From contig DAOUTI010000002.1 in assembly GCA_030626795.1 (NCBI GenBank), positions 1-40,087 on the forward strand: a stretch of DNA of 40,087 nt, given 5' to 3'. Source of the stretch: Flavobacteriaceae bacterium. Lineage in GTDB: Bacteria > Bacteroidota > Bacteroidia > Flavobacteriales > Flavobacteriaceae. A program made the translations under genes and the position numbers. The first letter of the stretch is position 1, and each line of letters begins with the position of its first letter. Positions 3 to 29,453 of this stretch are shown one piece after another. Below the pieces are notes generated by a model. It was not told the origin of the DNA, made no database searches, and saw nothing but the letters and a program-made list of their open reading frames with translations.

Positions 3-548
3 AAAATTATAGCAAAAAAAGAAGACTATCAAGGTTCAGAATATACTTCTGCCCGAATAAAAACTCAAGGAAAATTTGATTTTAAATATGGCAAAGTTGA
101 AATTAGAGCGAAATTACCTGAAGGTGGCGGAACTTGGCCTGCTCTTTGGATGCTAGGGTTAAACATAACTTCAGTCGGTTGGCCAGCTTGCGGTGAAATT
201 GATATTATGGAACATAAAGGAAATGTTCCAGGTAATGTTTCAAGTGCAATTCATACGCCTTCAAGTTATGGAGGTACAATCAATAAAGGAAATAAATTTG
301 TTTCTGATGTTTCAACAGAGTTTCATATTTATACAGTTAATTGGACTGTAGATAAAATTGAATTCGCAATTGATGACACCATTTTTTATACCTATAACCC
401 ATCAAATAAAGATAGTAATACATGGCCATTTGATGCCAATCAGTTTATTATTTTTAATGTAGCAATGGGAGGAACTTTTGGAGGTGCAATTGATTCTGAT
501 TTTACTGAAGGAACGATGGTAGTAGATTATATTAGGGTTTATCAATAA
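3..548 (+). CDS. GH16 family beta-glucanase (laminarinase-like), 5' truncated by the window edge
   Basis: The frame is open from nt 3 (KIIAKKEDYQGSEYTSARIKTQGKFDFKYGKVEIRAKLPEGGGTWPALWMLG...). It carries the GH16 catalytic motif GEIDIMEH and the C-terminal MVVDYIRVYQ. The listed ATG at 150 is internal. Confidence 0.93.
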   Translation, partial: KIIAKKEDYQGSEYTSARIKTQGKFDFKYGKVEIRAKLPEGGGTWPALWMLGLNITSVGWPACGEIDIMEHKGNVPGNVSSAIHTPSSYGGTINKGNKFVSDVSTEFHIYTVNWTVDKIEFAIDDTIFYTYNPSNKDSNTWPFDANQFIIFNVAMGGTFGGAIDSDFTEGTMVVDYIRVYQ

Positions 549-3339: not shown

Positions 3340-4187
3340 AGAAAATTATAATTCATATATTTTTATTGTTAATGATAACTAGCTGTATGTCAGATGTTAA
3401 AACTAATATTTCTGTTATGACTTATAATGTTAGATATGGTTTAGCAGATGATGGTGAAAACTCTTGGGAGTATCGTAAAAAAGAGTTGTCTAATTTAATA
3501 AAGTCTAAAGAGCCCGATTTTTTAGGTACACAAGAAGGTTTACCTTTTCAAATTAGTTATATAAACAATGCCATGCCAAATTATGAATTTATTGGTACAG
3601 ATAGAGATGGTAATGGTAAAGGCGAAAATACTGCTATATTCTATAATACATCTAAATATAAAGTCCTAAAACAACACACATTTTGGTTGTCTCCTACTCA
3701 AAATAAAGTGTCTAAAGGATGGGATGCAGCATATCCCCGAATTTGCACTTACGGCTTATTTACAAATAAATTAACTAAACAAAATTTTTGGGTAATCAAC
3801 ACGCATTTTGACCATATTGGTGTTGAAGCAAGAAAAGAAAGTGCGCTTCTAATACTAAACAAAATAGAAGAAATAAATACTAAAAATTACCCTCTAATTT
3901 TTATGGGTGACTTAAATGCAGAACCTGAAAGCAAACCTGTAATAAGTTTAAAAACACATTTAGTAGATTCTAAGGAAGTATCGATAGAAAAACCTAAAGG
4001 GCCTGATGGTACTTTTAATGCCTTTCAATTCGAAATTCCCGTTACAAAACGAATAGATTATATATTCATTTCAAATAACAACACAATACAAGTAAATAAT
4101 TATACGGTTTTAAATGACTCTAAAGAATCAAAATATCCTTCAGATCATTTACCCGTGTTTGTAGAATTAACAATAAAAAAGAACTAA
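3336..4187 (+). CDS. Endonuclease/exonuclease/phosphatase (EEP) family lipoprotein
   Basis: Lipobox-like ITSCMS. EEP motifs MTYNVRYG, GTQEG, THFDHIG, MGDLNAEP and PSDHLPVFVEL. Overlaps the stop of the upstream GH16 gene. Confidence 0.88.
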   Translation: MKKIIIHIFLLLMITSCMSDVKTNISVMTYNVRYGLADDGENSWEYRKKELSNLIKSKEPDFLGTQEGLPFQISYINNAMPNYEFIGTDRDGNGKGENTAIFYNTSKYKVLKQHTFWLSPTQNKVSKGWDAAYPRICTYGLFTNKLTKQNFWVINTHFDHIGVEARKESALLILNKIEEINTKNYPLIFMGDLNAEPESKPVISLKTHLVDSKEVSIEKPKGPDGTFNAFQFEIPVTKRIDYIFISNNNTIQVNNYTVLNDSKESKYPSDHLPVFVELTIKKN

Positions 4188-6490
4188 TGATTAAAATGCA
4201 TAAAATATTTATTCTCTTTATCTCAATTATTTTGTTTTCCAATTGTAAAACTAGAGAAATTAGTATCGTAGATACGAATGGCAATACTATGGAACAAAAA
4301 GTGGATTCTGTTTTAGCCTTAATGACATTGTATGAAAAAGTTGGTCAAATGAATCAATACAATGGTAGTTGGGATGTAACGGGCCCAGCATCAGGCAAAA
4401 GCGATAAAGATAAACTAGAAAGGCTTAAAAACGGGGGAGTTGGTTCTATGCTAAATGTTCTTTCAGTTAAAGCCACAAGAGAAGCACAAAAACTAGTAAT
4501 GGAAAACTCTCGTTTAAAAATCCCATTAATCATAGGTTACGATGTAATTCATGGTTACAAAACAATATTTCCAGTACCATTGGGAGAAAGCGCAAGTTGG
4601 GATTTAGATATTATGCAAAAATCGGCAGCAGTAGCAGCTAGTGAAGCTTCGGCAGCTGGTATAAATTGGACGTTTGCGCCAATGTTAGATGTTTCTAGAG
4701 ATGCTCGTTGGGGTAGAATAATGGAAGGCTCTGGTGAAGACCCATATCTTGCATCACAAATAGGTGTTGCTAGAGTAAAAGGATTTCAAGGTGACGATTT
4801 AACAAAAAATAATACCATTGCAGCATGTGCAAAACATTTTGCAGGCTATGGTTTCGCAGAAGCAGGAAGAGATTACAATACGGTAAATATAGGTGAGTAT
4901 GAATTGCACAATGCTATTTTACCTCCGTTTAAAGCTGCTGCAGAAGCAGGAGTAGCAACCTTTATGAATTCATTTAATGAAATTGATGGGATTCCAGCAA
5001 CAGGGCACAGAGAGTTACAAAGAACTATTTTAAAAGATAATTGGAGTTGGGATGGATTTATTGTTTCTGATTGGGGGTCTGTTGGTGAGATGATAGCGCA
5101 CGGTTATGCTAAAGATATGAAACAGGCTTCAGAAATTGCTGCAAATGCTGGTAGCGATATGGATATGGAATCTTATGCTTATGAAGGATATTTAGAAGAA
5201 TTAGTTAATGAAGGAAAAGTGGATATTGCATTAATAGATGATTCTGTAAAACGAATTTTAAGAATAAAATTTAGACTGGGGCTTTTCGATGATCCATATA
5301 AATATTGTAATGAAGAAAGAGAGAAAACTGAAATTTATACGCAAGAAAATCAGGATTTTGCACGTGAGGTTGCAAAAAAATCAATTGTTTTACTTAAAAA
5401 TGATAACCATATCTTACCTTTAAATAAAAGTATAAAAAGCATTGCCATTATTGGTCCTTTGGCAGATGATAAAGATTCTCCAATAGGTAATTGGAGAGCA
5501 AAAGGAGAAACAAATTCGGCAATTTCATTATTAGAAGGAATTAAGAATGCTGTGAGCCCAAATACGAAAGTAATATATGAAAAAGGAGTAAGTATTTTAA
5601 CGGAAGAATATCCAAGAGGAAGAGGCTTTTTAATGCCTTTAAATTTTAACACAACAGATGTATCAGGAATACCTGCTGCCGTTAAAGCAGCGAAAAATGC
5701 TGAAATAGTTGTGTTAGCAATTGGAGAGGTCGCATTGCAAACAGGTGAAGGTAGAAGCCAAACAAATATTAAATTAGTAGGAAAACAACAAGAATTATTA
5801 GAAGCCATTTATAAAGTAAATAAAAATGTGGTAATCGTTTTAATGAATGGGAGGCCTCTAGACATTTCATGGGCGGCAGACAATGTGCCATCTATTTTAG
5901 AATGTTGGCTTTTAGGTTCACAATCAGGAAACGCAATAGCTGATGTGCTATTTGGAGATTATAATCCATCGGGAAAATTACCAGTATCATTTCCTCATAA
6001 CGTTGGTCAAGAACCATTATATTACAATAAAAAAAATACGGGAAGACCTTATAATGAAACTCATGTTACCTTTTCGGCTTACAGAGATGCTCCAAATACT
6101 GCTTTATACCCATTCGGTTTTGGTTTGAGTTATACAAACTTTACTTATAGCAACTTAAAATTAAATAAAAAAGAAATTACTTTAGACGGAAAAACCACAG
6201 TATCAGTAGAGGTAACAAATACAGGAGGAGTTGATGGAGAAGAAGTAATTCAATTATACATTAGAGATTTAGTAGGAAGTATTACTAGACCTATTAAAGA
6301 GTTGAAAGGGTTTCAAAAAATATACTTTAAAAAAGGAGAGACTAAAACTGTAACGTTTGAAATAAATTCAAAAACATTAGAATTTTATACCGTAAATAAA
6401 AAATGGGAAGTAGAACCAGGTGATTTTAATATTTGGATTGGTGGAAGTTCAACTGCAGAATTAAAAGCATCATTTACTGTTGTAAAATAA
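4187..6490 (+). CDS. Glycoside hydrolase family 3 beta-glucosidase (BglX-like)
   Basis: Lipobox-like LFSNCK. GH3 nucleophile region WDGFIVSDWGS, KHFAGYG, GH3 C-terminal domain and FnIII-like tail. The ATG overlaps the upstream stop. Confidence 0.94.
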   Translation: MIKMHKIFILFISIILFSNCKTREISIVDTNGNTMEQKVDSVLALMTLYEKVGQMNQYNGSWDVTGPASGKSDKDKLERLKNGGVGSMLNVLSVKATREAQKLVMENSRLKIPLIIGYDVIHGYKTIFPVPLGESASWDLDIMQKSAAVAASEASAAGINWTFAPMLDVSRDARWGRIMEGSGEDPYLASQIGVARVKGFQGDDLTKNNTIAACAKHFAGYGFAEAGRDYNTVNIGEYELHNAILPPFKAAAEAGVATFMNSFNEIDGIPATGHRELQRTILKDNWSWDGFIVSDWGSVGEMIAHGYAKDMKQASEIAANAGSDMDMESYAYEGYLEELVNEGKVDIALIDDSVKRILRIKFRLGLFDDPYKYCNEEREKTEIYTQENQDFAREVAKKSIVLLKNDNHILPLNKSIKSIAIIGPLADDKDSPIGNWRAKGETNSAISLLEGIKNAVSPNTKVIYEKGVSILTEEYPRGRGFLMPLNFNTTDVSGIPAAVKAAKNAEIVVLAIGEVALQTGEGRSQTNIKLVGKQQELLEAIYKVNKNVVIVLMNGRPLDISWAADNVPSILECWLLGSQSGNAIADVLFGDYNPSGKLPVSFPHNVGQEPLYYNKKNTGRPYNETHVTFSAYRDAPNTALYPFGFGLSYTNFTYSNLKLNKKEITLDGKTTVSVEVTNTGGVDGEEVIQLYIRDLVGSITRPIKELKGFQKIYFKKGETKTVTFEINSKTLEFYTVNKKWEVEPGDFNIWIGGSSTAELKASFTVVK

Positions 6491-12558: not shown

Positions 12559-13149
12559 TTAAGAAGCTCTTTTGACCAATTCTTTTATTTCGTTGATGCG
12601 CTTTTCTTTTTTTGGTTGCCTGTTTGTTTTTGCAAATGGGGTATGATATTGATGAGCCTCTAAAAATTTGACTTGAATTTTATTCCATTCATTAATATCA
12701 TTGATAACAGAAAAGGCTCGTAATTCATTAAAAAGTTGATTGCTTATTGCGTAAAAATCATCTCTTCCTAAATAATCAAGGTCTGCATCACAAATCATTT
12801 TTTCTAAATAATTTTCAGGAGTTTGAGGTATATGAGTAGCCATAATAAGCCCTTTTACAATCGTTATCTCTTTTTTAGTAAAACCATACTCAATCATATA
12901 TTTTTCAACAATTTCACAACCTAGCTTTTCATGTTCTATATTTGAAATGGCAAAACCAATGTCATGATAAAGCGCTCCTATTCGTAAAAGTTTGGCTGTG
13001 TATATATCAATTTTTTCTCGTGTGATGGATTTATTAATCACTTTGAGTACGTCATAGGTGTGGTGAGCACCATGATAATATAACTTTTGAGGTAATTTTG
13101 AATTTAATATCTCAAAAGCTTTTTTTCGTATTTTAATATATCCTTTCAT
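12559..13149 (-). CDS. HD-domain phosphohydrolase
   Basis: HHTYDV, ALYHDIGF (HD) and CDADLDYLGRDDFY metal-ligand motifs. The C-terminal WNKIQVKFLEAHQYHTPFAKTNRQPKKEK segment resembles the HD half of HD-DUF5706 fusion proteins (from memory). Confidence 0.82.
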   Translation of the reverse strand: MKGYIKIRKKAFEILNSKLPQKLYYHGAHHTYDVLKVINKSITREKIDIYTAKLLRIGALYHDIGFAISNIEHEKLGCEIVEKYMIEYGFTKKEITIVKGLIMATHIPQTPENYLEKMICDADLDYLGRDDFYAISNQLFNELRAFSVINDINEWNKIQVKFLEAHQYHTPFAKTNRQPKKEKRINEIKELVKRAS

Positions 13150-13174
13150 TTATTTAAACTGATAACGTATTTAT

Positions 13175-13684
13175 TTATAAATTTATTACCCAAAACCCAA
13201 TTATTAATATTATAAAAATAAAACTAATAGCAAAATATTTTATTGACTTTTGCACACTTTTAAATTTTTGATCAATAATAGTACTTTCAATAAAGACTTG
13301 ATGGCTTAATTGTATAAAAAGCTCTTTTTCATCGGTACAAATTTCGGTTAATTTTTTACTGTATTCATCAATATTACCAAATGAATAAACAGCATCTCTA
13401 AAAAAAAATACATTTTTTTTAAATTTTAATTCTATTCTAGGCATAAAACATTTAAAAGCATAAAATATTGAAATTAATACGAAAATAATCCAAAGACCAA
13501 TCAATATTAGAAAAATATAGTTTCCGTGAAACACTTCATTAAAATAATCTAACCTATCAACAAAGAGACCTAAAATAAGACTGTGAAAAGAAAAAATAAT
13601 ACCTGCTTTAAGCTCAGATGATCTTATTAATTTTTCTAACCTTTCTAATTGTTCCCAAAAATTATTAGGATCTTGTTGTATCAT
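13175..13684 (-). CDS. DUF5706/PycTM-like (Pycsar-effector-type) membrane protein
   Basis: Layout: short amphipathic start (LEKLIRSSELKAGIIFSFHSLILGLF), second TM (YIFLILIGLWIIFVLISIFYAF), CFMPRIE...FFFRDAVYSFGNIDEYSKKL...LSHQVFIESTIIDQKFKSVQKSIKY, C-terminal TM. This follows the D/E-x-KA...PR...FF-D...EY...Q...K pattern I associate with DUF5706. Needs an HMM check. Confidence 0.68.
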   Translation of the reverse strand: MIQQDPNNFWEQLERLEKLIRSSELKAGIIFSFHSLILGLFVDRLDYFNEVFHGNYIFLILIGLWIIFVLISIFYAFKCFMPRIELKFKKNVFFFRDAVYSFGNIDEYSKKLTEICTDEKELFIQLSHQVFIESTIIDQKFKSVQKSIKYFAISFIFIILIIGFWVINL

Positions 13685-13737: not shown

Positions 13738-15636
13738 TTACAATTCACTTTTTTGTTTAACTAGTTTAGTTTTATCGTTTTCAATTTCTTGTCCTTGAAC
13801 AAAATACATTTTCATCATTCCTTTGTTTTTAACACTAATTTCGCCTCTATATTCGCATTCGTATTTGTCTTTAATTAATTCATAAGTAGTTTCAGATATA
13901 TTAATTTTTCCTGGTAAAGAAGTTGATTCCATACGTGAAGCTACATTAACGGTGTCTCCCCAAATATCATAAGCAAACTTTTTTGTACCTACAACTCCGG
14001 CAACTACAGGTCCGGTATTAATTCCAATACGAACTTCAAAAGATTTAATATTTTCAACATTCACCTTTTTAGAAATTTCCATAAAATCAGCAATTTCAAA
14101 AGCAGCTTGTATCATTTTATCTGCATGGTCAATGGTAGGGAAAGGTAAGCCTCCGGCACACATATAGGCATCGCCAATGGTTTTTATCTTTTCTAGGCCA
14201 TGTTTTTCTATAATACTATCAAATTTCGAAAAATAATAATCCACACTTTTTACCAATTCTTCTGGAGATAAATTTTGCGAAATATTTGTAAACTCTTTAA
14301 AATCGGTAAACATAACACTTACGGATCCAAATTGTTTTGCTTGTACTTTTCCGTTTTGTTTTAATTCTTTGGCGGTTTCTTCGGGTAATATGTTCAACAA
14401 TAATTTCTCAGACTTATTGGTTTCTTTTTGAATAATTTTATTTGTTTTATTTATAAAACGATATCTTCTATAAATACCTATGGCTATCATTAAAAATAAA
14501 AATGAGCTTATAGCAGTTGCATAGGTAATCGTTTTGTTTTTTTTATCTTTCAGCTGATTTATTTCTGCTTCTTTTTCTAAAAACCCTATTTTATCTTGTT
14601 TTTTTTGCACCTCAAAATCTGTGCGTAGATTTGCCATTTGTTGCACCGTTTTAATATTTGTAACACTATCTCTATATAGGATATAGTTTTTATAATATTT
14701 AAATGATTCAGGAAGGTTATTATTTAATTCATAAAGTTTTGAAAGCTTTAAATTGGCATCGCTTATCTGTTTTTTTAATCCATATTTTTTTGCTAAATCT
14801 AAACTTCTAAGCGCGTAATTAAATGCATTTGGTAAATCATTTTGCTTTACATAGATATCAGACATATACGTTAGGTAAACACAAATAGGATAATAATCAT
14901 TTTGTTTTTCTAGAATTTCAATGGCTTTATTCATGTTGTTTTTTGCCATATCATTTTTTCCTTGCTGAGCATAAGCGATCCCTACATTACCCAAATTATA
15001 TGCGATTCCTAATTCATAATTCAAGGCTTTGAAAATTGCACCCGACTCATTTAAATAGATCAAAGCAGAGTCGGGTTTGGAAACATTTAAATACTCATCA
15101 CCAAGGTTCTCAATCGACGCAGCAAAACGTACAGAATCATTATTTTTTTTTAAAGCGTTTATTGCAATTTGATAATAATGTACTGAGTTGTTATGATTTC
15201 CCATTTCGGAATAAGTGCCAGCTATGGCATCATTTATGCGTCCTATTTCACGATTAGTTTTTTTATCATCTGTAATCTTTGCTGAAATTAAATAATTTTC
15301 TAAGGCTTGAGAAAGATTTCCTTTTCGTTGAAATGCATTTCCTTTATTTAAGTATGCATTAAACAAATATTGTATAGAATCTAATTTACTTGCAGTTTCA
15401 ATAAGTTCTATGCTGTAGTTTAATTTTTTTTCTGGATCAATTGATTTATCAGACAATTGACTTAGTATATTTAACCTATTTACTTCTTCAAAATCACCAT
15501 TATAAACTATTTCCAGGCTGTCAACTAGTTTTTGATTTTGACCGTATATTCCAGAATATATAAACAAAATAAATCCCAGTCTAAAATATACTTTCTTAAA
15601 GTAAAAGATTCCCATAAATGATAAAGTAATTTTCAT
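13738..15636 (-). CDS. Signal peptide-TPR-TM-class III adenylate cyclase
   Basis: N-terminal Sec-type segment, multiple TPR-like helical pairs, TM (TITYATAISSFLFLMIAIGIY), then a CHD cyclase with FTDFKEFT and IGDAYM (metal Asp), IKTIGD (Lys) and YDIWGDTVNVASRMES (Asp, Asn, Arg). Confidence 0.92.
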   Translation of the reverse strand: MKITLSFMGIFYFKKVYFRLGFILFIYSGIYGQNQKLVDSLEIVYNGDFEEVNRLNILSQLSDKSIDPEKKLNYSIELIETASKLDSIQYLFNAYLNKGNAFQRKGNLSQALENYLISAKITDDKKTNREIGRINDAIAGTYSEMGNHNNSVHYYQIAINALKKNNDSVRFAASIENLGDEYLNVSKPDSALIYLNESGAIFKALNYELGIAYNLGNVGIAYAQQGKNDMAKNNMNKAIEILEKQNDYYPICVYLTYMSDIYVKQNDLPNAFNYALRSLDLAKKYGLKKQISDANLKLSKLYELNNNLPESFKYYKNYILYRDSVTNIKTVQQMANLRTDFEVQKKQDKIGFLEKEAEINQLKDKKNKTITYATAISSFLFLMIAIGIYRRYRFINKTNKIIQKETNKSEKLLLNILPEETAKELKQNGKVQAKQFGSVSVMFTDFKEFTNISQNLSPEELVKSVDYYFSKFDSIIEKHGLEKIKTIGDAYMCAGGLPFPTIDHADKMIQAAFEIADFMEISKKVNVENIKSFEVRIGINTGPVVAGVVGTKKFAYDIWGDTVNVASRMESTSLPGKINISETTYELIKDKYECEYRGEISVKNKGMMKMYFVQGQEIENDKTKLVKQKSEL

Positions 15637-15642
15637 TAAAGC

Positions 15643-16125
15643 TTAATTTCCCACAAATATTTTAGGGTCAATTTGAAAAGTACCATTTCTTTTAACCCCA
15701 TTATTCAAAACTTTAAATTTTATGGTGTATTTATAAGTTTTTTTATTTTCACCTACTGTGGTGTTTAGTACTTCTCCAATCACTAACTCCGGAGTTTCTC
15801 CATTCCCTTTTAAAGTATTTACACCAAAGATATTGGTTCCCCCATGGTGATTGATAGAAGTGATATTAACAATATCTGTATCTGGTGCACTTGAAGAAAT
15901 ACCTTGCCATACTATGGTATCTCCAATATTTGCAGTAATGGTAAAATCTTCGTTAGAAACACCATCTTCTTGCCCAAAATCACAATATTGGTTTACTTCG
16001 TGCTTTACAATATTTCCAGTATCTACATTTAAAGTTATGATATGTTCTAGTTGCGCATGCATACTATTGCTAAAAGATAAAAATGAAATAGCAATTAAAA
16101 ATTGAAATAGTTTAGTTGTTTTCAT
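15643..16125 (-). CDS. Small secreted protein, possible cupredoxin-like beta-sandwich
   Basis: Signal peptide (MKTTKLFQFLIAISFLSFSNSMHAQ). FTITANIGDTIVWQGISS...TYKYTIKFKV pattern recalls cupredoxin folds, but no complete copper-ligand set is visible. Confidence 0.5.
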   Translation of the reverse strand: MKTTKLFQFLIAISFLSFSNSMHAQLEHIITLNVDTGNIVKHEVNQYCDFGQEDGVSNEDFTITANIGDTIVWQGISSSAPDTDIVNITSINHHGGTNIFGVNTLKGNGETPELVIGEVLNTTVGENKKTYKYTIKFKVLNNGVKRNGTFQIDPKIFVGN

Positions 16126-16153: not shown

Positions 16154-18115
16154 TTAAATATTTATTACTTTTTCTTTAACACCTTGAACAAAATACATTT
16201 TCATCATTCCTTTATTTTTTGCATTAATTTCGCCTCTATATTCGCAGTCATATTTGTCTTTAATCAATTCATAAGTGGTTTCCGATATATTAATTTTACC
16301 TGGTAAAGAAGTAGATTCCATGCGTGAAGCTACATTAACGGTATCTCCCCAAATATCATAGGCAAACTTCTTAGTGCCAACAACTCCAGCAACTACTGGT
16401 CCGGTATTAATTCCAATACGAACCTCAAAAGATTTAATACTTTCATCATTCTTATTTTTAGAAGCTTCCATAAATTTTGCAATTTCAAAAGCAGCTTGTA
16501 TCATTTTATCAGCATGGTCAATGGTAGGAAAAGGTAAACCTCCGGCACACATATAGGCATCACCAATAGTTTTGATCTTTTCTAAGCCATGTTTTTCTAT
16601 TATTTCATCGAATTTTGAAAAATAGAAGTCCACACTTTTTACCAATTCTTCTGGAGATAAATTTTGCGAAATATTTGTAAACTCTTTAAAATCGGTAAAC
16701 ATAACACTTACGGATCCAAATTGCTTTGCTTGTACTTTTCCGTTTTGTTTTAATTCTTTGGCGGTTTCTTCTGGTAATATATTCAATAATAATTTTTCTG
16801 ATTTTTCGGTTTCTTTTTGAATAAGAATATTAGTTTTTTTAATAAATCTATAACGTCTATAACTTGCTAATGCCAATAAGAAAACTAAAAAAGCCCCTAT
16901 AATAGAAGTGTAAGTTATACTTTTTTGTCTTTTACCTTGTAACTGATTAATTTTTGCTTCTTTTTCTAATAAACTTATTTCGTCTTGTTTTTTATCTAAA
17001 TCAAAATCAAATTGGAGTCCACGAATTTTATCGTCAGTTTGCATATTAAATACCAAATCTTTTTGCCTAAGGTATTTTTCTTGATATGTGTACGCATTTT
17101 TGTAATCGCCTTTGTAGGAATAGGTTTTGGATAACCCTTGGTATATATCACGTAATTCATCACTAGTTTCTAATTCTTTAGCCAATTGTTCAGCTTCATT
17201 ATAGTTGCTAAGGGCTTTTTCAAAATCATTTTTTTGATAAATACTTCCCAAAGCAATTATAGATTGAAGTAGGTCTAACTGTAAATTATTATTTTTTGCA
17301 ATTTGATACGCTTCAACCAAATGATTATTGGCTTTCTCAATATCTCCTTTTTTAATTTCTACTATTCCAATCATTGTTAAATTATGCGCATAATTGGATG
17401 TGGATTTATTAATTGGTAGGGCTTTATTATAGTAATTTAATGCTACAACATAGTTTTCTTTTTTATCATAAATTTCACCAACTCCCATCAAATAGGATGC
17501 TAATATTTGTGAGTCATTTAATTCTGGTAAATATTTTTCAATTTGTTTAAAATAGTTTAATGCCTTGTCATAGTTTTCCATTTCACCATAAACGCCACCG
17601 ATATTTAATAATGCAGAAGAAATAAGAAAAGTATCCTTTTGTTTTTCAGATATGCTCAATGAACGCAAAAAATAATCTAAAGCTTTGGCATGACTACCCT
17701 GACTATAATAAACGGCTCCTAAATTATTTACAAGGTTTGCAATACCTAAGGTGTCATGAATAGTTTCGAAAGTGTATAAAGATTTTGTCCAATTATCTAG
17801 CACAGCCAAAAAATCAACTTGGTAATACTGAGCTAATCCAATATTTTTTAAAGCATACGCTTTCCCTTTTTTATAATTCAATTGATCTGCAAGCGCATAA
17901 GCTTGCTCAGAATAATGAATAGATTCCGAAATATTTTCATTGTTTAATATTTCAATACTTAAAGCATTTAATGTAGATACCATTGCGGTATCTTTTGTTC
18001 TAGTTTCCACAACACTTTTTAAGCTGTCTATTTTCGCGTTTTGTGAAAAAACAGGTAAAGACAATAGTAAAAAAAGAATTACTGAAACAAAAGATACTTT
18101 ATGGTTTATAATCAT
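16154..18115 (-). CDS. Signal peptide-TPR-TM-class III adenylate cyclase (paralogue of 13738-15636)
   Basis: Signal peptide, TPR repeats, TM (SIIGAFLVFLLALASYRRY). The catalytic domain is nearly identical to the downstream paralogue. Confidence 0.92.
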   Translation of the reverse strand: MIINHKVSFVSVILFLLLSLPVFSQNAKIDSLKSVVETRTKDTAMVSTLNALSIEILNNENISESIHYSEQAYALADQLNYKKGKAYALKNIGLAQYYQVDFLAVLDNWTKSLYTFETIHDTLGIANLVNNLGAVYYSQGSHAKALDYFLRSLSISEKQKDTFLISSALLNIGGVYGEMENYDKALNYFKQIEKYLPELNDSQILASYLMGVGEIYDKKENYVVALNYYNKALPINKSTSNYAHNLTMIGIVEIKKGDIEKANNHLVEAYQIAKNNNLQLDLLQSIIALGSIYQKNDFEKALSNYNEAEQLAKELETSDELRDIYQGLSKTYSYKGDYKNAYTYQEKYLRQKDLVFNMQTDDKIRGLQFDFDLDKKQDEISLLEKEAKINQLQGKRQKSITYTSIIGAFLVFLLALASYRRYRFIKKTNILIQKETEKSEKLLLNILPEETAKELKQNGKVQAKQFGSVSVMFTDFKEFTNISQNLSPEELVKSVDFYFSKFDEIIEKHGLEKIKTIGDAYMCAGGLPFPTIDHADKMIQAAFEIAKFMEASKNKNDESIKSFEVRIGINTGPVVAGVVGTKKFAYDIWGDTVNVASRMESTSLPGKINISETTYELIKDKYDCEYRGEINAKNKGMMKMYFVQGVKEKVINI

Positions 18116-18133: not shown

Positions 18134-21100
18134 TTATTCTTTTATTATATTAAATGTTCTTACTTTAGAAGAGCTAACAATTCTGACAATATATAATTCA
18201 CTTGAGTACCCCGACATATTAACAGTTATGATTTCTTTAATTCCATCAAAACTATTACCACTGTATACAATACTGCCATACATGTTCAAAATAGTAACAT
18301 CACTTACCTCAGGTACATTTTGAAGAATATTCAAATCAATGCTAACTGGGTTCGGATAAATCGTATAGGCTCCATCCAACTTAGCATCGCATTTGCCAGA
18401 TTCGGAAGTAGAAGATGAGGAAACCGAACTTTTATGCGTACTGCCAAATGTAGTCAGGTTCCAGACCAATCTTTTTCCATCAAATCGGATATCAAATGTG
18501 CCACTACCGGGAAGAAAAACAGTAGGTAACTGACCTTCATAATCTGCTGGACCCGATAAATAATTATCTGCACCATCTAAAACAAAAACAGTATCCTCAT
18601 TATCGTTTTCATACCGATAAACAACCGTATAGAATAATCCATCGGAGGCATTTGCATCATAAGCAACGCATTCTGCATAGGTGCGAATTTTATCTGTATT
18701 ACTGGAAGAATTAATATACAATTTTGCAACATTAGAATTGATTAAATAATTTTTAGGATCTCTAATCCTAATGGTAAATACGCCGGTATCACTATAGTTT
18801 CGTTCAATTCCTGCCTCATCAACAATATAATAAGAGATACCATTAGGGAAAACAGAAGTCTCAGTGTCACCAAAAACAAAACCATCAAAATGAGATATGA
18901 ATAAAGGTGTATCCCCTTGATCGATAACTAAATTATCAATACTTACCGATAAGATTTTTGGTGAAATTGATAATACATTGGCTGAATTATCATATTCAAA
19001 AATATAATGATTATTAGTCTCTTCAATTTTGATATTGTAATTACCAACTTCCAGTTCGTCATCTAAATTATAAATCGATCCGGTAGTATCTTCAAAATAA
19101 TAAGAGATACCAATTGAGCCAAAAATATCAGTTGATGTTTCATTCGGTGCAAATTCTATAAACTCCGTTGTTAAATTTGCAGAGTTTGTATTATAACCAT
19201 AATCCTTTGTTAAATTATCTGTTTTGACTATTACATGGCGAGGAGAAATCATTAAAATTCCATGGTCAACAGCATACAAAATTTCATAATTAACTGATGT
19301 TGTTGGTGCTAAAACATTGACAATATAAATACCTAATTCCTTAACGGATTCTATGTCTAATTCTGCATCAAGTCCATCAATAAAAAGATACGATATTCCA
19401 TCAGGAAAAACAGTCTCTCTTGTTTCACCAAAAGCAAAACCTGAAATAACGGTTGAAATAGCTGTCTTAAGATCATCTCCATATTCTATTTCTAATTCCA
19501 TTGTTTTTACGGTTAAATGTGCGGGTATAATGGTTAATAAACCATGATTCAAGCCATACTCCATAAGATATTTCTCTGTTCCTCTAATTTTAATCTGATA
19601 CGTGCTAACATTCATTTTATCACCCAGTTCGTATTCATTTAAGTCAGCATCAACAAAATAATAAGGTACATCATCTGGAAAGACAGTTTCCTCTGACTCA
19701 TCAGTATATGCAAAATCACCAAATACGGTTGTTAAATCGCTTGCTTCAAAGTTTTCACCATAACTTGCTTCAAAATTTACTGTTTCTGCGATTAGATTTG
19801 TTTGCGAAATAGTTACTATACCATGCGTTTCATCATTGGTGAGATTCATTATATAATTCTGAGAATTTTTTATTCCAGTTTTATAATCACCTAGTTCCTT
19901 CAATTCATTTAATTCTAACTCTGTGCCATCTCCTCCTACTTTTATAAAATAATAAGGTATGCCATCAGGGAAAACAGTCTCTACGGATTCTTGAAATTCA
20001 CCTTCAAAAGCCCAACCATCAAAGTTAGTGATCAAATTTAATTTTTCTTCAGTAAGCAATTCCCCATAAGGGATAGTCAAATTATCGATATTTACATTCA
20101 GCTCTTTATGTAAAATAATCAAGCTTCCCGCTTCATATGTGATGTTAAAATTAGCAGACGTTGCATTTAGAAAAGCTCCCGGATATACATAGTGACCTTG
20201 AGGGTCGGATGTTACCTCTAAACCAGTAATCATATTTAATGAAAACATATTTGAAATTGCTCGCTCACTATCAGAACCATCCTCAGGTGGAGCATCTTCT
20301 GCGTCAATAATTGCAAATGCTGAACTATATGCACTATATGGATTTGAAGGATTATCAGTACTTACTACTGCCCTAAACTTACTTACTACTGCTCTAAATT
20401 TATTATCAATACTTAAATCTACTTCTCCAGAAAATAATTCTTCGGCGCTCACAACAGCTCTAAATTTACTTACTACTGCCCTAAATTTATTAATAGTTGG
20501 ATCTGTTTCAAAATCAGACTGAGCATCAATAAAATTAGTAAAATGTTCATTATCCAATTCTATAATATTCATACCGCTTACTACTGCTCTAAATTTATTT
20601 TCAATGGTACGTTCGGAAGCACTCCAGCTTGATCCATTTAATAAATCTAACAAATCATAATCACTTACGACCGCGCGAAATTTACTAACAACTGCGCGAA
20701 ATTTATTAGGTAAGCCATCCTTAAAATCACTAGCATGACTGGTTTTTATTAAACTATAAAAACCAGTTTCAGGAGAATTATTTGTTATATCACTTATATC
20801 ATAGGAGTATAATAATGGAAGATCTATTGCTTCACCATAGGTATATGTAACATCTTCAGTTGTAATAGTCAAGTCTTTCTTGGTAACAGTCAAATAACCA
20901 GTTTTACCTAGTTCAGTATCAATAAAACCGGAAATAAAATTTATTTGGAACAAATCATGGTCATAATCAACTACTCCAAAAGATGGAGTTATAACATAAT
21001 CAAAAACAATCGGAAAACCTCCTTCTGCTAATTTAATATCTGCAGGAGAATTCAATACCACCTCAGGAAGTCCTAATGATGCCATAATTTCCGGAAAGGA

Positions 21101-23722
21101 CTGGGTCATATCTGTACCTTCTGGAAGACCTTCAACTACAAACTCTTCAAGGTTTATATCTTGTCCGTATTCCACTTCAACATTGTTAGCAATAATACTT
21201 AAAGCTATTTTACCTTCATCAAAGAAAAAAGCCGGGTCAGATGCACCACCATCAGTATCTCCCGGAGTCGTGCTTTTTGCAACAACGACCAACTTAGGAT
21301 TTCCAGAGAACGTAGGCACAGTGGCAGTAATTATAGTCGTACCATCTTCTGCTGTTGCAAAGGTAACATCCTCCAAAGGCTGTCCGTTAAATAAAACAGA
21401 AACATCTTCTTGATTTTCAGGAAAAAATTCACCGATGATAGTTACTGTAAATGGCTCGGAACTAGGTGTTTTACCATCTTCAACAATTAGTTCGGTTATT
21501 CTTGCAGTTTGTGCTGCGATACTTTTAAAAGCGGCAAGGGTATTGATGAACCCACCGTTAGAACCATCAGCGGCAGAGAAACTGGTTGCTGTAGTTTTTA
21601 ATGTTTGCAAAGCGCTATTTGCCGTAAAAGATCCATCTGGATACCAAGATGGTGCAGCAGACATTAATAATGCCGTTGCTCCTGCAGCATGCGGTGCTGA
21701 TGCCGAAGTACCATAAAAATTTAAAATTCCATCATTATCGCAAGTACTACAATTAGCATCTTGACCTATTGTAGTGGAAGCAGTATTACCGCCATCGGGT
21801 GCATAAATATCAACTTCGAGGTTTGTACCATCAGATAAAAGACCACCATAAGACGAAAAACTTTCAGCTACTGGATTAAGAGCATTACGATAATCAACAG
21901 CACCAACAGTTACAGATTCTGGGGTCATAGCATGCCCGCTAACTGTAGCAGCTCCACTTCCAAAATATTCAAGAAATTTCAAACCATCGGGGGTATGGTC
22001 TTCTGCCGCTGTTCTAAATGCAATATATCTTAAAGGTACATTTGTTGGCCCATTTGCACTGGTAATTAAAATATTAGCTTCTCCAGTTCCAGTTGCCCGA
22101 AAAACAATGATCTCAGTTGGGTCTCCTGCAATATTTATACGGTTGCTCCCTACGAGTAATCGACCTAAATCATCCACTATATAAATATCTAAATCGTCTA
22201 ATGCCCCCAACTGGTTTTGTTGAGAAGCTGCGTTTTCTTTCCATTGCAAAGCAATTAAATAGGTTCCAGGAACAACACTTATTTTTTGCATATAATCTTC
22301 AGAACCATCAGAATTTATTCCAAATACATGGGCTTTGCTCGGGCTCCCTTCTGTGATAAAATTGGTAACCGGTAAATTTGTAGAAGCTTTAAAAATACTG
22401 CTGTAAGCTTTGTTTGCGATATTTCCAGCCGATGTAAAATGCATTTTCCCGGGTAAACTTAAAAAAGATTGTATGGCTTGAGAAATACGACCAGTACCAA
22501 AAAAAGGTTCTGTAATAAAAGTAATATCATCTACTATAATGTCGCTTTCTAAGGCTAATACATTAAAACCAACTTCAAATTGACGAGGGGAAGCTGTTGC
22601 GGTATGGAACTGTAATTCAGCACGTGGTGCCACATCATGTATAATTTGCATCATGGCTCTTCCTTCATCGGTAGCTTTAAATTCATTATCTTTTAACACC
22701 ACAACTCCCTCGGGTAATTCGCCATTTGCAACATCAATTGCAGCAAGTGACTCTCCGGGAATTGCCATATCATAGCTGTCGGACAAAACACCAATTGTAA
22801 TATCGTTACCTTCCACCTTTACTAGATCCCCCGAACTGTTTTTTACACGAAATGATTCACGTACAATATCTGAGGTTTGTGCTGCATCACCTTGTGTGAG
22901 AACCCCACCCGAGTTTAGAATAGTAGGGGGTACAGGTCGTGCAAAGTTTATAATATCCGTAAAACCTACTAAATTACATATATCATCCTTTTTTAAATAG
23001 ACATCAAGAGATGCTAAGCTATTATAAAGAGAAAGATCCAATAAAAAGTCTGATGCAGGTATATTAAATGGAGATCCTGTTAATAAGGAGATTAAATTTG
23101 GCATTTTTTGATCATTTGGTACAATTTCAACAAGCACCTTGTCTGCATTAACTTGAAAAATAAATTCAGAAGGAGTTATACCGGCAACATCTTCACACCA
23201 GGCTGTAAGCTCTTGTCCAATATTCTGATCCGATTTTCCATTTCCAATAACTGGTTCAATAAATCCATCATCAGGTGCACATTTTTTTGCTGAATTGGCA
23301 TTGGCAATTACCGTATGTGTATTGCCATTACTAATTATCGTCCATTCTACATAATCGTGAGAACCAAATTCCTTAGTAAAAACTTTATCATTAGATCCTT
23401 TTTTAAATTTAGTTAAGCCTTTTGCTATTCTTTTACCATTATTGGATTTAATAATACTACCATCATCATTAATGGTTACTTCTTTTTTAGTGGGGTTTTC
23501 ATATCCAAAACTTGCTTGAAATAAACCATTGCCTAATTCTTTGACACAATAAACAACAGGAATAATATCTTTTGTTCCGTTTTCCCCTCCTTTTTTTTGA
23601 GAATAACTTAAAAAAGTAATTCCTAAAATCAATGCGAGTGTTAAAGAAATTTTAGTGTTTGACTTATAATTAAAATTTTTAAATATTTTGAAAATCCAAT
23701 TTAAAAAGTAATTATTTTTCAT
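18134..23722 (-). CDS. Giant secreted subtilisin-like (S8) protease with IPT/TIG-like domain, MBG-like repeats and T9SS type A sorting domain
   Basis: S8 triad motifs: ITIGVLSDSYD (Asp), MMQIIHDVAP (His), GTSASAPHAAGATALLMSAAP (Ser). TIG-like ITELIVEDGKTPSSEPFTVTIIGEFFPENQEDVSVLFNGQP. Repeated 'LTI....L.V.....L.I.YG' MBG-like units. C-terminal YTIYPNPVSIDLNI...VRIVSSSKVRTFNIIKE. Confidence 0.9.
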   Translation of the reverse strand: MKNNYFLNWIFKIFKNFNYKSNTKISLTLALILGITFLSYSQKKGGENGTKDIIPVVYCVKELGNGLFQASFGYENPTKKEVTINDDGSIIKSNNGKRIAKGLTKFKKGSNDKVFTKEFGSHDYVEWTIISNGNTHTVIANANSAKKCAPDDGFIEPVIGNGKSDQNIGQELTAWCEDVAGITPSEFIFQVNADKVLVEIVPNDQKMPNLISLLTGSPFNIPASDFLLDLSLYNSLASLDVYLKKDDICNLVGFTDIINFARPVPPTILNSGGVLTQGDAAQTSDIVRESFRVKNSSGDLVKVEGNDITIGVLSDSYDMAIPGESLAAIDVANGELPEGVVVLKDNEFKATDEGRAMMQIIHDVAPRAELQFHTATASPRQFEVGFNVLALESDIIVDDITFITEPFFGTGRISQAIQSFLSLPGKMHFTSAGNIANKAYSSIFKASTNLPVTNFITEGSPSKAHVFGINSDGSEDYMQKISVVPGTYLIALQWKENAASQQNQLGALDDLDIYIVDDLGRLLVGSNRINIAGDPTEIIVFRATGTGEANILITSANGPTNVPLRYIAFRTAAEDHTPDGLKFLEYFGSGAATVSGHAMTPESVTVGAVDYRNALNPVAESFSSYGGLLSDGTNLEVDIYAPDGGNTASTTIGQDANCSTCDNDGILNFYGTSASAPHAAGATALLMSAAPSWYPDGSFTANSALQTLKTTATSFSAADGSNGGFINTLAAFKSIAAQTARITELIVEDGKTPSSEPFTVTIIGEFFPENQEDVSVLFNGQPLEDVTFATAEDGTTIITATVPTFSGNPKLVVVAKSTTPGDTDGGASDPAFFFDEGKIALSIIANNVEVEYGQDINLEEFVVEGLPEGTDMTQSFPEIMASLGLPEVVLNSPADIKLAEGGFPIVFDYVITPSFGVVDYDHDLFQINFISGFIDTELGKTGYLTVTKKDLTITTEDVTYTYGEAIDLPLLYSYDISDITNNSPETGFYSLIKTSHASDFKDGLPNKFRAVVSKFRAVVSDYDLLDLLNGSSWSASERTIENKFRAVVSGMNIIELDNEHFTNFIDAQSDFETDPTINKFRAVVSKFRAVVSAEELFSGEVDLSIDNKFRAVVSKFRAVVSTDNPSNPYSAYSSAFAIIDAEDAPPEDGSDSERAISNMFSLNMITGLEVTSDPQGHYVYPGAFLNATSANFNITYEAGSLIILHKELNVNIDNLTIPYGELLTEEKLNLITNFDGWAFEGEFQESVETVFPDGIPYYFIKVGGDGTELELNELKELGDYKTGIKNSQNYIMNLTNDETHGIVTISQTNLIAETVNFEASYGENFEASDLTTVFGDFAYTDESEETVFPDDVPYYFVDADLNEYELGDKMNVSTYQIKIRGTEKYLMEYGLNHGLLTIIPAHLTVKTMELEIEYGDDLKTAISTVISGFAFGETRETVFPDGISYLFIDGLDAELDIESVKELGIYIVNVLAPTTSVNYEILYAVDHGILMISPRHVIVKTDNLTKDYGYNTNSANLTTEFIEFAPNETSTDIFGSIGISYYFEDTTGSIYNLDDELEVGNYNIKIEETNNHYIFEYDNSANVLSISPKILSVSIDNLVIDQGDTPLFISHFDGFVFGDTETSVFPNGISYYIVDEAGIERNYSDTGVFTIRIRDPKNYLINSNVAKLYINSSSNTDKIRTYAECVAYDANASDGLFYTVVYRYENDNEDTVFVLDGADNYLSGPADYEGQLPTVFLPGSGTFDIRFDGKRLVWNLTTFGSTHKSSVSSSSTSESGKCDAKLDGAYTIYPNPVSIDLNILQNVPEVSDVTILNMYGSIVYSGNSFDGIKEIITVNMSGYSSELYIVRIVSSSKVRTFNIIKE
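20360..20704 (-). repeat. Seven in-frame copies of the heptapeptide KFRAVVS (three tandem doublets and one single copy)
   Basis: Copies at 20684-20704, 20663-20683, 20576-20596, 20468-20488, 20447-20467, 20381-20401 and 20360-20380 (minus-strand order). All translate to KFRAVVS but differ at synonymous positions. Each doublet or single copy is preceded by Asn. Confidence 0.97.
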
Positions 23723-23995: not shown

Positions 23996-25039
23996 TTAAC
24001 TATTTACTTCATAAACAACAAGTGGTAATTTTTTATTTTTCATTTCTATTTCACCAACTTTTTTACAGTTAAAGGAATCTTTTACTTTTAAATAATTTGC
24101 TTCACTAATTAAAATTTGTCCTCTATTTGCAGCCGATTGAAGCCTTGAAGCTACATTAACCGCATCACCTATAACAGTATAATCTAATCTTTTTAAAGTA
24201 GAGGAACCTATATTGCCCCAAACCATATCTCCACTATTAATTCCAACTGAAACTTTTGGTTTATAGGATTCATTTCCAATTCCAATATCAGCATTTTCTA
24301 TAACTTTTCTTATCCTAAGGCAGGCTTCAATGGCTCGATCAATATGATATTCTCCTTTAAAAGTAGCCATTACTGAATCACCTAAAAATTTATCAATAGT
24401 ACCGTCTTGTTTGATGATTTCATTCACCATAATATCAAAATAAGCATTCAACATTTCTACCACTTTATTAGCTGGTTCTTTTTCACTTATTGAAGTAAAT
24501 CCACAAATATCAACAAACACCGCTGTTCCATCAATCGTCTCATTATCAAAAAGAGAAGTCTTCATTTCTTTATTGCCCATAAAATTAATTACGGTTTCAT
24601 CAACATACATACGAAGAATATTATTTTCTTTTACGGCTTGTAAGGTTTTTTTAATGGCATTTACATGTTCAATCGTCTTTTCAATGGTTAATTCGAGATC
24701 TTTAAAATCAATGGGTTTGGTTATAAAATCAAAAGCTCCACGGTTCATTGCCGTTCTAATGTTTTCCATATCTCCATAAGCCGAAACCATAATTGATTTT
24801 AACAAGGAGTTTTGCTCTTTGATTTTTGTTAACAAAGTAAGCCCATCCATTTCAGGCATATTTATATCACTCAAAACCAGATCAATATCGGTATGTTTTA
24901 AAAGTTGTTCAAGAGCATGCCTCCCGTTTTCGGCAAAAACAAACTCGTATTCATTCTGCCTTATTTTTTGTCTAAATTTTTGTTTGATCAAGATTTTTAA
25001 ATCTTCTTCGTCGTCAACAACAAGTATTTTAGTAATCAT
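23996..25039 (-). CDS. Response regulator (REC) fused to class III adenylate cyclase
   Basis: [78 protein letters not shown] (Lys/Thr pattern typical of class IIIb). Confidence 0.93.
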
Positions 25040-25757: not shown

Positions 25758-28700
25758 TTATAAAGGGATATAAATAGAAAATTTAGTTCCTTTACCTGCC
25801 TCTGTATCCAATTCAATGGCTCCTCCATGGCCTTGGGTTATAATATCATAAGCCAATGACAAGCCCAACCCTGTACCTTTACCTGTTGGTTTCGTGGTAA
25901 AGAAAGGTTGAAAGATTTTTTCTTTGATATCATCCGGAATACCGGTACCGTTATCTTGAACTGTTATCAATACTTGATCGTCTAATTTTTTAGTACTTAC
26001 TGTTACCAGAGGTTTATAGTCTTTAATTTGTCCATCTTCGGCAGCAGAGGTAACCGCATAAAATGCATTATTGATTAAATTTAATAATACCCTACCTAAA
26101 TCTTGAGGTATCACTTCCACTTTTGGTAAGCTCTCATCCAAATCGGTTTTAAAATCAGCATTAAACGATTTATTTTTTGCACGTAAACCATGGTAAGACA
26201 ATCGCAAATATTCATCTGCCAGTACATTGATGTCGGTCAATTCTTTTTTACCCGAAGTATTTCTAGAGTGCTCTAACATACCTTTTACAATACTGCTGGC
26301 TCGTTTGCCATGATGGGTGATCTTATCTAAATTTTGTGATATATCTTTTGAAATTGTCTTTGCTTCGTCATAATCTCCTTTGTCTAATTCTTCATGCATT
26401 TCATCGATCAACTCCATACTCACTTCCGAAAAATTAGTGATAAAATTCATTGGGTTTTGAATCTCGTGTGCTATACCAGCGGTGAGTTCACCTAAACTTG
26501 CCATTTTTTCAGAATGAATCAATTGACTCTGGGTGTTTTCTAGCTCTTCAATTGTTTTATTTAATTTGGCAGTTCTATGATTTACCTTTTCTTCTAAAAT
26601 TCGATTCTCTTTTTTTAGATATTGAGAACGATAATGTAAAATAACCAAGCCCAAGCCCAAAAATAGAGCTACGAAAATGGTATATGCCCACCAACTTTGC
26701 CACCATGGGGGAGTTATTACAAATTTAAATTCGGTAGTTTTACTCCAAACCTCATTAAAACCTTTTGAAGCTACTTTAAAAGTATAGTCGCCAGATGGTA
26801 AATCTCTATAATTTTCACTTTCTGTTTCTGTTGTAATCGGACTCCAATTTTTATCAATGCCCTCTAAAATATATCGATAAACCAAATTATTTGGATTGGC
26901 AAATTGCCCTCCGTTAAAATTAAAACTTAAATAATTTTGGGTATAGGGTAGCGTAAGACCAACCGGAATATTATGGGCGCCTTTTACGGTTGACCATTGA
27001 ATATTATTAAGGGTAAGATAACTGGAATCTTTGGCTGTTTTATTGTATAAATAAGGTTTGTTTCTAACCCATAGAGTATCTAAATCAGCTCGTTTTTTTT
27101 GCAATAAGTTTACATCTTTAAAAACCCTTTTTTTATCCATGATATTGATACTAGTAATAACTGCTGGATAAGCTGCAGTATCTTCTACTAATTTATCAAT
27201 TACCATAATTGATCTTAATGGATTACCTCCAGCCCATAATCTTCCATTTTTATCAAAATCAATACTGTTTTGAGAAATGTCAGGCCCCATAATTCCTTGA
27301 TTTTGATCTAGAGTTCTAACTTTCCATTGGGTTTTATTCTCCTTATTAATTGCAGGTGTTAAAATGCTTATTCCTTTTGAAGATCCTAAAAAGAATTCTC
27401 CTTTTTGTAAAATAATATCGTAAATATCATTGGCAGCAAGGCCTTCTTCTGTTGTAAAAGTGGTTAACACTTTATTTTTTAAGTCAATTTTTTGAACTCC
27501 ATTTATTGTGGCTACCCAAATATTTTGCTGCTCATCTTCAATAAGAGCCATGATTTGATCGCCAACTAAACCATTATCAGTTGTTAATCTTACACGTGTA
27601 TTGCTTGCTGGGTCTATTAATTGAAGGCCATTACTATTTGTCCCAACCCAAATATTTTTTTTGCTATCTTCAAAAATCACAATATTTTGATCTGGAGTTC
27701 GTGTTGTATCAATAGCTATACTTTGATAAGTAGCATTTTTTAAATCAAATTTGTGTAATTCACCCGGGTTACCTCCCAACCAGTAGTTACCATTTGAATC
27801 TTCAATAATATATCTGCCAGAGTTTGCTTTTAAGCCTTCTGTTTTTGTTAATTTTTCAATGGTTTCGTTTATTGGATCAATAATACTTACACCAAAATTG
27901 TTACCCGAAACCCAAATTCTACCTTTACTATCTTCACTTAGATGGTAGGTATAATCAGCCACCAAGCCCTGTTCTATACCAAAATGTTTAATCGTTTCAT
28001 TTTTTGGGTTATAAACATCAACACCCCTTTCGGTTCCAATCCAAACCCTACCATCTTTGGCTACTAAAGTTCTCCATACACTATCATCTGTCAAACCATT
28101 AGCTTTGGTAAAATTACCTGTTTTACCAGAATTTACATCTATTTTAAACAAACCACCTTGGGCAATAGATGCCCAAATTTGACCTTGATTGTCTTCTAAT
28201 AAATTAAAAACAAATTGACTATTGTTATTACTAAGTTTATATTTTTCTAATATCTTATTAGGTTCATCATAAGAAAAAAGTAAACCATTTACAGAGCCAA
28301 TCCAAAAATTATCATATTTATCTTGAAATATATCTGCTGCTCCACCAATACCATCAAGACCTTCATTGGGTGTAAAATAAGACATTTCGGTTTTATCTTT
28401 ACTTAAAATATTAATACCTCCACCGCCTGAAATCCATATTTTACCTTCTCTATCTTCGTAAAAAGAACTAACAAAATTTTGCATTAATCCCTGATCTTGA
28501 GTAAGTGTAATATTTTTTCCTGATTTTAGATCTAAAATATTACAACCACCACCTGAAGAAAGCCAAATACGACCACCACTATCTTGAAATGGATCAATAG
28601 TAAAGGTTCCTAATAAACCATTTTTTGGTTTGAACTGTCTTGACCAATTTTCATTTAAATCAAAAATGATATATCCAAAATCTCTGTTTGCAAACCACAT

Positions 28701-29453
28701 TCTACTTTGGTCATCCTCAAACATACCATAAACATCTAAAGGATCTTTAGTAGTTAGTTGATATATTAGTTTTACTTCAAAATCAATAATAAAGATGGAG
28801 CTGGAATTATCTGAAACCCATAACCTATTTTTACTATCAAAAATCAAGCTAAATACTCTTGTCGCATTTAACCCTTGTTCTGATCCATAAATTTCGATAT
28901 TTTCTGAATCATATCTGGCAATACCATTACTTGTACCAAACCAAAGCATACCATCTTTGTCTTTTGTGCTACAATAATTAATTCCGGGTAAACCAAAATT
29001 TGCATCTAATTGCATAACCCCTGGTGAAAATAAGGAGTTGATTACAGGGTTATTGGCTTTTACAATTTTTGGGTCTCCTAAAACAGAAATTTTAATTTTT
29101 AAATCTTTTTTGGGTAAATTTTCTAAGCTAAACGGTGTTGATGGTAAACTGTCCCAATTAAATGGTTTAGATGTTAATGGCTTTTTTAATTTATATGGCA
29201 AACCAATATCAAGAGGTTTGGATGGAAGTTTATTCCATGAAAATTTGGTTTTAGGTAAAGCCTTTAATTTTGAAGTAACCCATTGTAAAGTATCGGGCTT
29301 AGAAAACTCAAAACTTTTGGTTTGGGGTTGTGCATATTCATTTTCATGATAAGGAAAAGGAGGTGCTTCTTTTGTATTGTTGCAAGAGGTGATAAATAGG
29401 ATTAAAGAAAAAATAAATACTTTTAAAGTAAAAGCCTTAGTAATTTGATGCAT
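25758..29453 (-). CDS. Two-component sensor histidine kinase with N-terminal lipoprotein-like signal, Reg_prop beta-propeller and Y_Y_Y domain
   Basis: FITSCNN lipobox-like start. Many 'D..G.IW.G....G....' propeller repeats. Y_Y_Y-like [18 protein letters not shown]...[32 protein letters not shown]. HisKA [14 protein letters not shown]. HATPase [48 protein letters not shown]. No REC or AraC domain. Confidence 0.93.
   Translation of the reverse strand: [1231 protein letters not shown]

Follow-up and report, generated by a model that had tools for sequence, protein, structure and literature searches.

Why would a secreted bacterial protein hold seven identical copies of a heptapeptide, KFRAVVS, whose codons differ from copy to copy? 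The copies lie in a 40,087-nt stretch of DNA from a Flavobacteriaceae bacterium (assembly GCA_030626795.1, contig DAOUTI010000002.1, positions 1 to 40,087 of the forward strand), here called the window. A sequence-only reading had placed them in an MBG-like region of a secreted protease and had offered three roles: a multi-copy precursor released by the subtilisin domain of the same chain, a ligand-docking or self-assembly beta-strand, or a recognition tag for another surface protein. We compared the array, the protein that carries it and the neighbouring genes with homologues across Bacteroidota, sampled at one genome per species and including several MAGs.

The KFRAVVS array and the protein that carries it

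All seven perfect copies, three doublets and one single at aa 1007-1121, were present with the letters and coordinates reported earlier. On the minus strand of the window, copies 1 and 2 (doublet 1, aa 1007 and 1014) lie at 20684..20704 and 20663..20683, the single copy 3 (aa 1043) at 20576..20596, copies 4 and 5 (doublet 2, aa 1079 and 1086) at 20468..20488 and 20447..20467, and copies 6 and 7 (doublet 3, aa 1108 and 1115) at 20381..20401 and 20360..20380. Seven identical heptapeptides within 115 residues are not a matter of chance. The scrambling of the codons was likewise as described, with Arg as CGC, AGA or AGG, Ala as GCA, GCG or GCT, Val as GTA, GTT, GTC or GTG, Ser as AGT or AGC, and Lys as AAA or AAG. 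No other KFRAVV-coding site was found in the genome, which is 83.5% complete, and this, together with the scrambled codons, rules out a mobile DNA repeat. Among 398 genomes of the family, KFRAVVS arrays occurred only in the window protein and one homologue, and the remaining matches were isolated. The AF2 model of the repeat region had a pLDDT of 34, so that the region is not folded in the model, which supports no structural reading. We saw no shared cleavage motif or processing site around the units.

The gene (18134..23722, minus strand) encodes 1862 aa with a signal sequence, an S8-fold domain, TIG-like and MBG-like modules (the TIG match being weak), the repeats and a T9SS type A tail. This tail (Por_Secre_tail/TIGR04183, aa 1788-1853, 18164..18361, minus strand) scored above the curated cut-offs of both profiles, with 30.0 for PF18962 (cut-off 27) and 26.6 for TIGR04183 (cut-off 23). 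The Pfam Peptidase_S8 match (aa 577-714, 21581..21994, minus strand) contains the serine motif GTSASAP. The histidine motif HGTHVAG of the canonical Asp-His-Ser triad was not found in the S8-fold domain; at about its place stands ASDEGRAM, in which E353 was invariant in eight aligned relatives. The invariant DEGRA (aa 352-356), where subtilisins have their histidine motif, marks an S8 protein family with an altered active site. The description as a secreted protease thus held for the S8 fold, the serine motif and the T9SS tail, and is doubtful for the proteolytic activity, since the canonical HGTHVAG motif is absent. For the same reason, self-processing by this domain is not to be assumed.

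The repeat insert covers aa ~1003-1140 (20303..20716, minus strand) and has spacers homologous to those of close relatives. Its assignment to an MBG-like region is indirect. The 1862-aa protein itself gave no Pfam MBG match (PF18676, MBG_2), and among the homologues MBG_2 scored above the cut-off only in Flavihumibacter L113 and below it in others. In distant homologues, however, the match is split around the insert, which sits between two MBG_2 halves (profile positions ~1-26 before it and ~29-72 after it). The proposal that the motif is an ordinary core strand of an MBG domain is ruled out, because the repeats lie outside the MBG profile, interrupt the domain and have a unit that varies between lineages. 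In Lutimonas halocynthiae (L086), and not in the window protein, the insert is followed in the same chain by three MBG modules that are long and almost identical.

Homologous inserts carry other units

In homologues across Bacteroidota, an insert occupies the corresponding site; its spacers are recognisably homologous to those of the window protein, and its unit, another one of 6-9 aa, is usually uniform within each protein. An automatic count over 58 proteins gave 32 best units, and 290 of the 352 near-copies were identical to the consensus of their own protein. The 7-mers ended either in Ser (KFKAVVS, KFQAVVS, KFKAIVS, KFQALVS) or in Asn (KFQAVVN, KFRAVVN, KFQAIVN, SFKALVN, [SA]FKGLAN, KLRAIVN, RFKAVVN, RFVAVVN, RFRTVLN, GFKALVN, RARALVN, KSRAVVN). 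Longer units were the 8-mer NGQALGII and the 9-mer NDFRQSAIM, and Chitinophagaceae and others had 6-mers (LRGIVS, GYALVN, GK[QA]AVN, GRALSN, SKAVAN). The window protein has seven copies and other proteins about 4 to 17, with long tandem arrays in some homologues (GYALVN, NGQALGII).

Free divergence of the copies was not what the orthologues showed: most were uniform, and mixed or degenerate units were confined to a few proteins (L095, L117 and the GKQAVN/GKAAVN mixture). L095 (from genome G415) and L117, with their degenerate, non-uniform units, still have the adjacent TPR-cyclase gene described below and may be decaying or relaxed cassettes. Several genomes (G820, with L174 and L178, as well as G813, G812, G402 and G415) contain two cassettes each, whose units frequently differ, as do RFKAVVN and RFVAVVN.

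Copies are kept alike without current DNA homogenisation

We examined whether the codons of the copies are more alike than the codon usage of each gene predicts. In the window, codon sharing between the KFRAVVS copies was 0.54 compared with 0.45 for draws from the gene's own codon usage (P = 0.08), not clearly above expectation, which bears out the earlier view that the peptide is held constant while the DNA has drifted. Across 13 genes, the codons of the copies resembled random draws from the codon usage of the gene, with a weak excess in two genes and a deficit in one. Codons also followed the position of the copy in two close species pairs with the same unit: Flavihumibacter L105 and L121 (0.67 vs 0.37, P = 0.0005), and L100 and L106 (0.68 vs 0.44, 0 of 20,000 permutations). 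The third same-unit pair was more distant and uninformative, and in the remaining species pairs tested the synonymous sites were near saturation. These results indicate that the copies evolve separately, with the peptide held by selection, and that ongoing homogenisation of the DNA is not the cause of their identity.

Concerted evolution by gene conversion, acting on a peptide of no special function, would account for units that are uniform within a protein and different between proteins, which is its classical pattern, and some local tandem copies in L086 do share codons. As a current force it is rejected, because codon sharing between copies mostly does not exceed expectation and position-specific codons are kept in the two close pairs; it would also leave the coupling to the TPR domain, described below, unexplained. 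We consider this explanation extremely improbable. Older gene conversion followed by synonymous saturation is possible where four-fold sites are saturated.

The adjacent gene encodes a TPR-cyclase

The next gene on the minus strand (16154..18115), 18 nt downstream, encodes a protein with a signal peptide, a periplasmic TPR domain, a transmembrane helix (aa ~398-419) and a class III adenylate/guanylate cyclase, as assigned by Pfam and hydropathy. The TPR domain (aa 40-360, 17036..17998, AF2 pLDDT 88) is the proposed receptor for the repeated peptide, and a domain match places the catalytic domain at aa 461-644 (16184..16735). A TPR-cyclase gene lay directly downstream of the repeat gene, usually within 20 nt or overlapping it, in 48 of the 54 loci with enough contig, or in 51 of 54 if overlapping or frameshifted frames are counted (L174, L175, L178); these counts are indicative, as the 54 include several duplicate entries of one locus. 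L098, L115 and L116 lacked an adjoining TPR-cyclase; the contig of L116 runs on for just 0.9 kb.

In the loci examined by Pfam, the genes that follow encode PycTM-like proteins, HD proteins or both. In the window, these are a PycTM-type 2TM protein (13175..13684, minus strand), a possible cyclic-nucleotide effector also found after the pair in L092, L093, L136-L139, L169 and L170, and an HD-domain protein (12559..13149, minus strand), a possible cyclic-nucleotide phosphodiesterase with counterparts after the pair in many Flavobacteriaceae loci. Lying one after the other (12559-13684), the two may form an effector and reset pair. The PADLOC models for PycC and PycTM matched the cyclase and the 2TM protein, the latter being detected downstream at some of the loci only.

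The window contains a second TPR-cyclase (13738..15636, minus strand), possibly the receptor for another ligand, whose cyclase domain is 94% and whose TPR domain only 30% identical to that of the first. This comparison suggests homogenised catalytic domains and diversified sensors. Between the two genes lies one for a PixA-like protein (inclusion body protein family, 15643-16125), which was not seen near other cassettes. Just upstream of the repeat gene lie genes for a response regulator-cyclase fusion (23996-25039) and for a sensor histidine kinase that is large and beta-propeller-like (25758-29453); they might feed into the same second messenger as well.

Unit and TPR domain change together

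The closest view of a change of unit came from Aestuariibaculum G807 (locus L165, unit KFQAVVN) and M13 (locus L166, the same as L084, unit KFQALVS). Their S8 proteins are 95% identical, with differences at 11% of four-fold sites, and two residues differ in each of the seven units. The differences amount to 14 of 49 repeat residues, compared with 27 of 1185 residues outside the island. In the receptor, the cyclase domain is 100% and the TPR domain 75% identical. Identity along 9 kb of DNA stands at about 98% except in two main islands. One covers the repeats (L165 positions 2341-2880, mostly 76-84%), the other the TPR domain (about 4141-5031, mostly 60-82%), and the 1.2 kb between them is for the most part 96-99% identical. 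There are lesser dips as well, such as those near 3871 and at the far end. In four close pairs whose members share their unit, no comparable island was seen over the repeats; two of these pairs (L168/L169 and L100/L106) showed a modest drop in identity within a part of the receptor gene. The joint replacement of repeats and TPR domain was thus seen in one species pair.

Across pairs, unit identity was tracked by TPR identity and not by cyclase identity. The TPR and cyclase identities were 0.52 and 0.98 between RFKAVVN and KSRAVVN, 0.85 and 0.78 for a pair sharing GFKALVN, and 0.93 and 0.87 for a pair sharing NGQALGII. Between L085 and L165, which both have KFQAVVN, TPR identity is only 72%. 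A partial Mantel test of unit against TPR domain given the MBG flank, over 26 taxa, gave 0.44 with a permutation P < 1e-4 that is optimistic because many of the taxa are closely related, and the cyclase control gave -0.01. An earlier partial correlation over 12-13 taxa had given 0.33-0.36 (P about 0.065-0.08).

We then compared TPR residues between loci with the same unit. L084 and L092, which share KFQALVS and are not sisters, have 14 TPR sites in common when set against three relatives, and none in the linker or cyclase; seven of the 14 sit at residues 159-168. L088 (KFQAVVS) has A166-Q167 as in these two, a combination seen in no other row of the 34. Over the whole receptor, covariation was strongest in the 12-aa window 164-175 (max-statistic P = 0.02), although the statistics of this hot spot are partly post hoc, since sites and windows had been explored before some of the tests. 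R164 occurred with none of the four Ser-ending units and with nearly all Asn-ending 7-mers, the exceptions being L086 and L142 (Flavobacteriaceae). A general code in which R164 of the TPR domain pairs with a unit-terminal Asn failed its preset prediction, as Flavihumibacter with LRGIVS keeps the arginine.

The hot spot (aa 159-168, 17612..17641, minus strand) takes in a loop and the first part of helix A in the fourth TPR; in the AF2 model this helix begins with residues 162-168. Helix A of TPRs is the type of helix that lines the inner groove. A Foldseek search with the TPR model returned LGN/Pins complexes and then the pheromone receptors Rap and NprR, at a TM of about 0.6; this likeness of a predicted structure to peptide-binding TPRs is supportive only, since TPR arrays resemble one another.

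Discussion

Taken together, sequence comparison makes it probable (we would put it at about 0.74) that KFRAVVS is the specificity determinant of a multi-copy, lineage-specific ligand which would bind the TPR receptor-cyclase of the adjacent gene, the two making up a pherotype-like pair. The physical binding between unit and TPR domain, the direction of signalling and the cyclic nucleotide output are what we infer. The T9SS-tailed protein would display or supply a 6-9-aa peptide particular to its lineage, in several identical copies. The periplasmic TPR domain would bind this peptide on its inner face and control the cytoplasmic class III cyclase, and the PycTM and HD proteins would be the likely output and reset. 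We propose that no copy can depart from the others, since each of them has to match a single receptor. When the specificity of the receptor shifts, all copies would shift along, or the array and the TPR domain would be replaced together by recombination. The ligand might be cut peptides or an intact multivalent array that pairs receptors, and the latter would suit both the doublets and the dimerisation of cyclases. Because the ligand is addressed outside the outer membrane and the receptor is periplasmic, either re-entry or capture in the periplasm must be assumed. Of the roles offered at the outset, the recognition tag is favoured, with the partner being the periplasmic TPR domain of the next gene's cyclase and not a surface protein.

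The ligand-receptor reading has two sub-variants, whose likelihoods overlap with its own. In one, the units would be excised by proteases, diffuse away, return to the periplasm and switch on the receptor in the manner of quorum sensing. We regard this as a real possibility, though clearly short of even odds. Identical short peptides in many copies, their lineage-specific versions, a TPR receptor and an S8-fold domain in the same chain all fit it, and in RRNPPA systems a propeptide may contain 1-4 copies of the pheromone (PMC11343458). The earlier idea of a precursor released by the subtilisin domain keeps the support of copy number and lineage-specific units, and loses it on processing: no shared cleavage motif is seen around the units, the canonical histidine motif is absent, no importer or density dependence is known, and the conserved, homologous spacers suggest that the array matters as a whole. 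In the other sub-variant, the repeats would be bound by the TPR domain of the cell that makes them, while their protein awaits T9SS export in the periplasm. The cyclase would then signal how much cargo there is or how secretion stands, and the pair would co-evolve without passing any message between cells. Capture of this kind would solve the topology of a periplasmic TPR domain and a T9SS cargo, and would suit an operon of overlapping or near-adjacent genes; it is nevertheless rather unlikely, as the diversity of units between lineages and the allele swaps would go unexplained, and so would the genomes that keep two cassettes with different units.

Other explanations dispense with a ligand and receptor altogether. 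Both islands could be independent targets of diversifying selection, for example by phages or predators, and not partners. Both variable domains do lie outside the cytoplasm, and joint replacement was found in a single close pair; yet unit identity predicts TPR identity over 26 taxa after correction for the flank, and the non-sister pair with the same unit has clustered TPR residues in common, so that this explanation appears improbable. A self-assembling beta-strand or adhesive repeat, whose identical copies would be needed for pairing among themselves or with this protein on other cells, is suggested by the alternating residues and by the long tandem arrays of GYALVN and NGQALGII. It predicts no coupling with the neighbouring receptor domain, which was found, and it sits poorly with a unit length that varies from 6 to 9 aa and with the like-charge stacking of K/R that pairing would presumably entail. 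We therefore disfavour this role and rate it very improbable.

The ligand-receptor reading describes what looks like a previously undescribed private signalling system. A search of open-licence full texts returned nothing on these peptides or this gene pair, and no description of matched switching of peptide and receptor alleles in Bacteroidota, although such switching is well studied in Bacillota. What is new is the system; its working principle has analogues in Rap-Phr and in tandem pheromone propeptides. More tentatively, with the odds slightly against it, the pairs may serve private communication between kin cells throughout Bacteroidota, from T9SS-exported arrays through TPR receptor-cyclases to a PycTM effector, with HD reset and joint switching of pherotypes. 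If the reading is true, a testable ligand, receptor and second messenger would follow from sequence alone, T9SS proteins of unknown function and a class of TPR-cyclases would gain a role, and some 30 cognate peptide-TPR pairs would form a natural series for the study of specificity rewiring. The case also shows how the repeats of a protein can shift together while their DNA has not recently been homogenised.

Several known systems share features with this pair. Polyubiquitin is a familiar case of repeats that are identical as protein, have diverged at synonymous sites and owe their sameness to selection and not to DNA homogenisation. Ubiquitin is nearly invariant between species, whereas here all copies change between lineages. 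Yeast alpha-factor and neuropeptide precursors likewise hold identical units and spacers in one secreted chain and co-evolve with a receptor; here, in contrast, no processing sites were recognised, the spacers are conserved, and the receptor is the next gene, with TPRs. T9SS-tailed proteins with MBG_2 are a further parallel, in that the insert interrupts an MBG_2 domain in distant homologues; the repeats themselves form no part of the MBG_2 profile.

The RRNPP(A) systems (Rap-Phr, NprR-NprX, PlcR-PapR, AimR) are alike in their short, lineage-specific peptides and TPR-array receptors, and in Rap-Phr the alleles of ligand and receptor diversify and are transferred together (PMC5199041). Their receptors, however, are cytosolic regulators with an HTH or a Spo0F/ComA-binding output, while the receptor here is a membrane cyclase with periplasmic TPRs. 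The candidate ligand is part of a multidomain T9SS protein of more than 1,400 aa and not the product of a small propeptide gene, and the phylum is Bacteroidota, not Bacillota. No importer is known, and a periplasmic receptor would not need the re-import by oligopeptide permease on which RRNPP(A) systems depend. With Pycsar (PycC and PycTM), the loci share class III-type cyclase genes near a 2TM protein of the PycTM family. Unlike in Pycsar, the cyclase is part of a transmembrane receptor with TPRs, whose gene accompanies that of a secreted repeat protein, with an HD gene in addition. Pfam assigns the cyclase to the general class III cyclases, and PycTM is not always there. Pycsar is further defined by cCMP/cUMP production and abortive phage defence. 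By the defining features tested, the pair is neither RRNPP nor, as far as tested, Pycsar.
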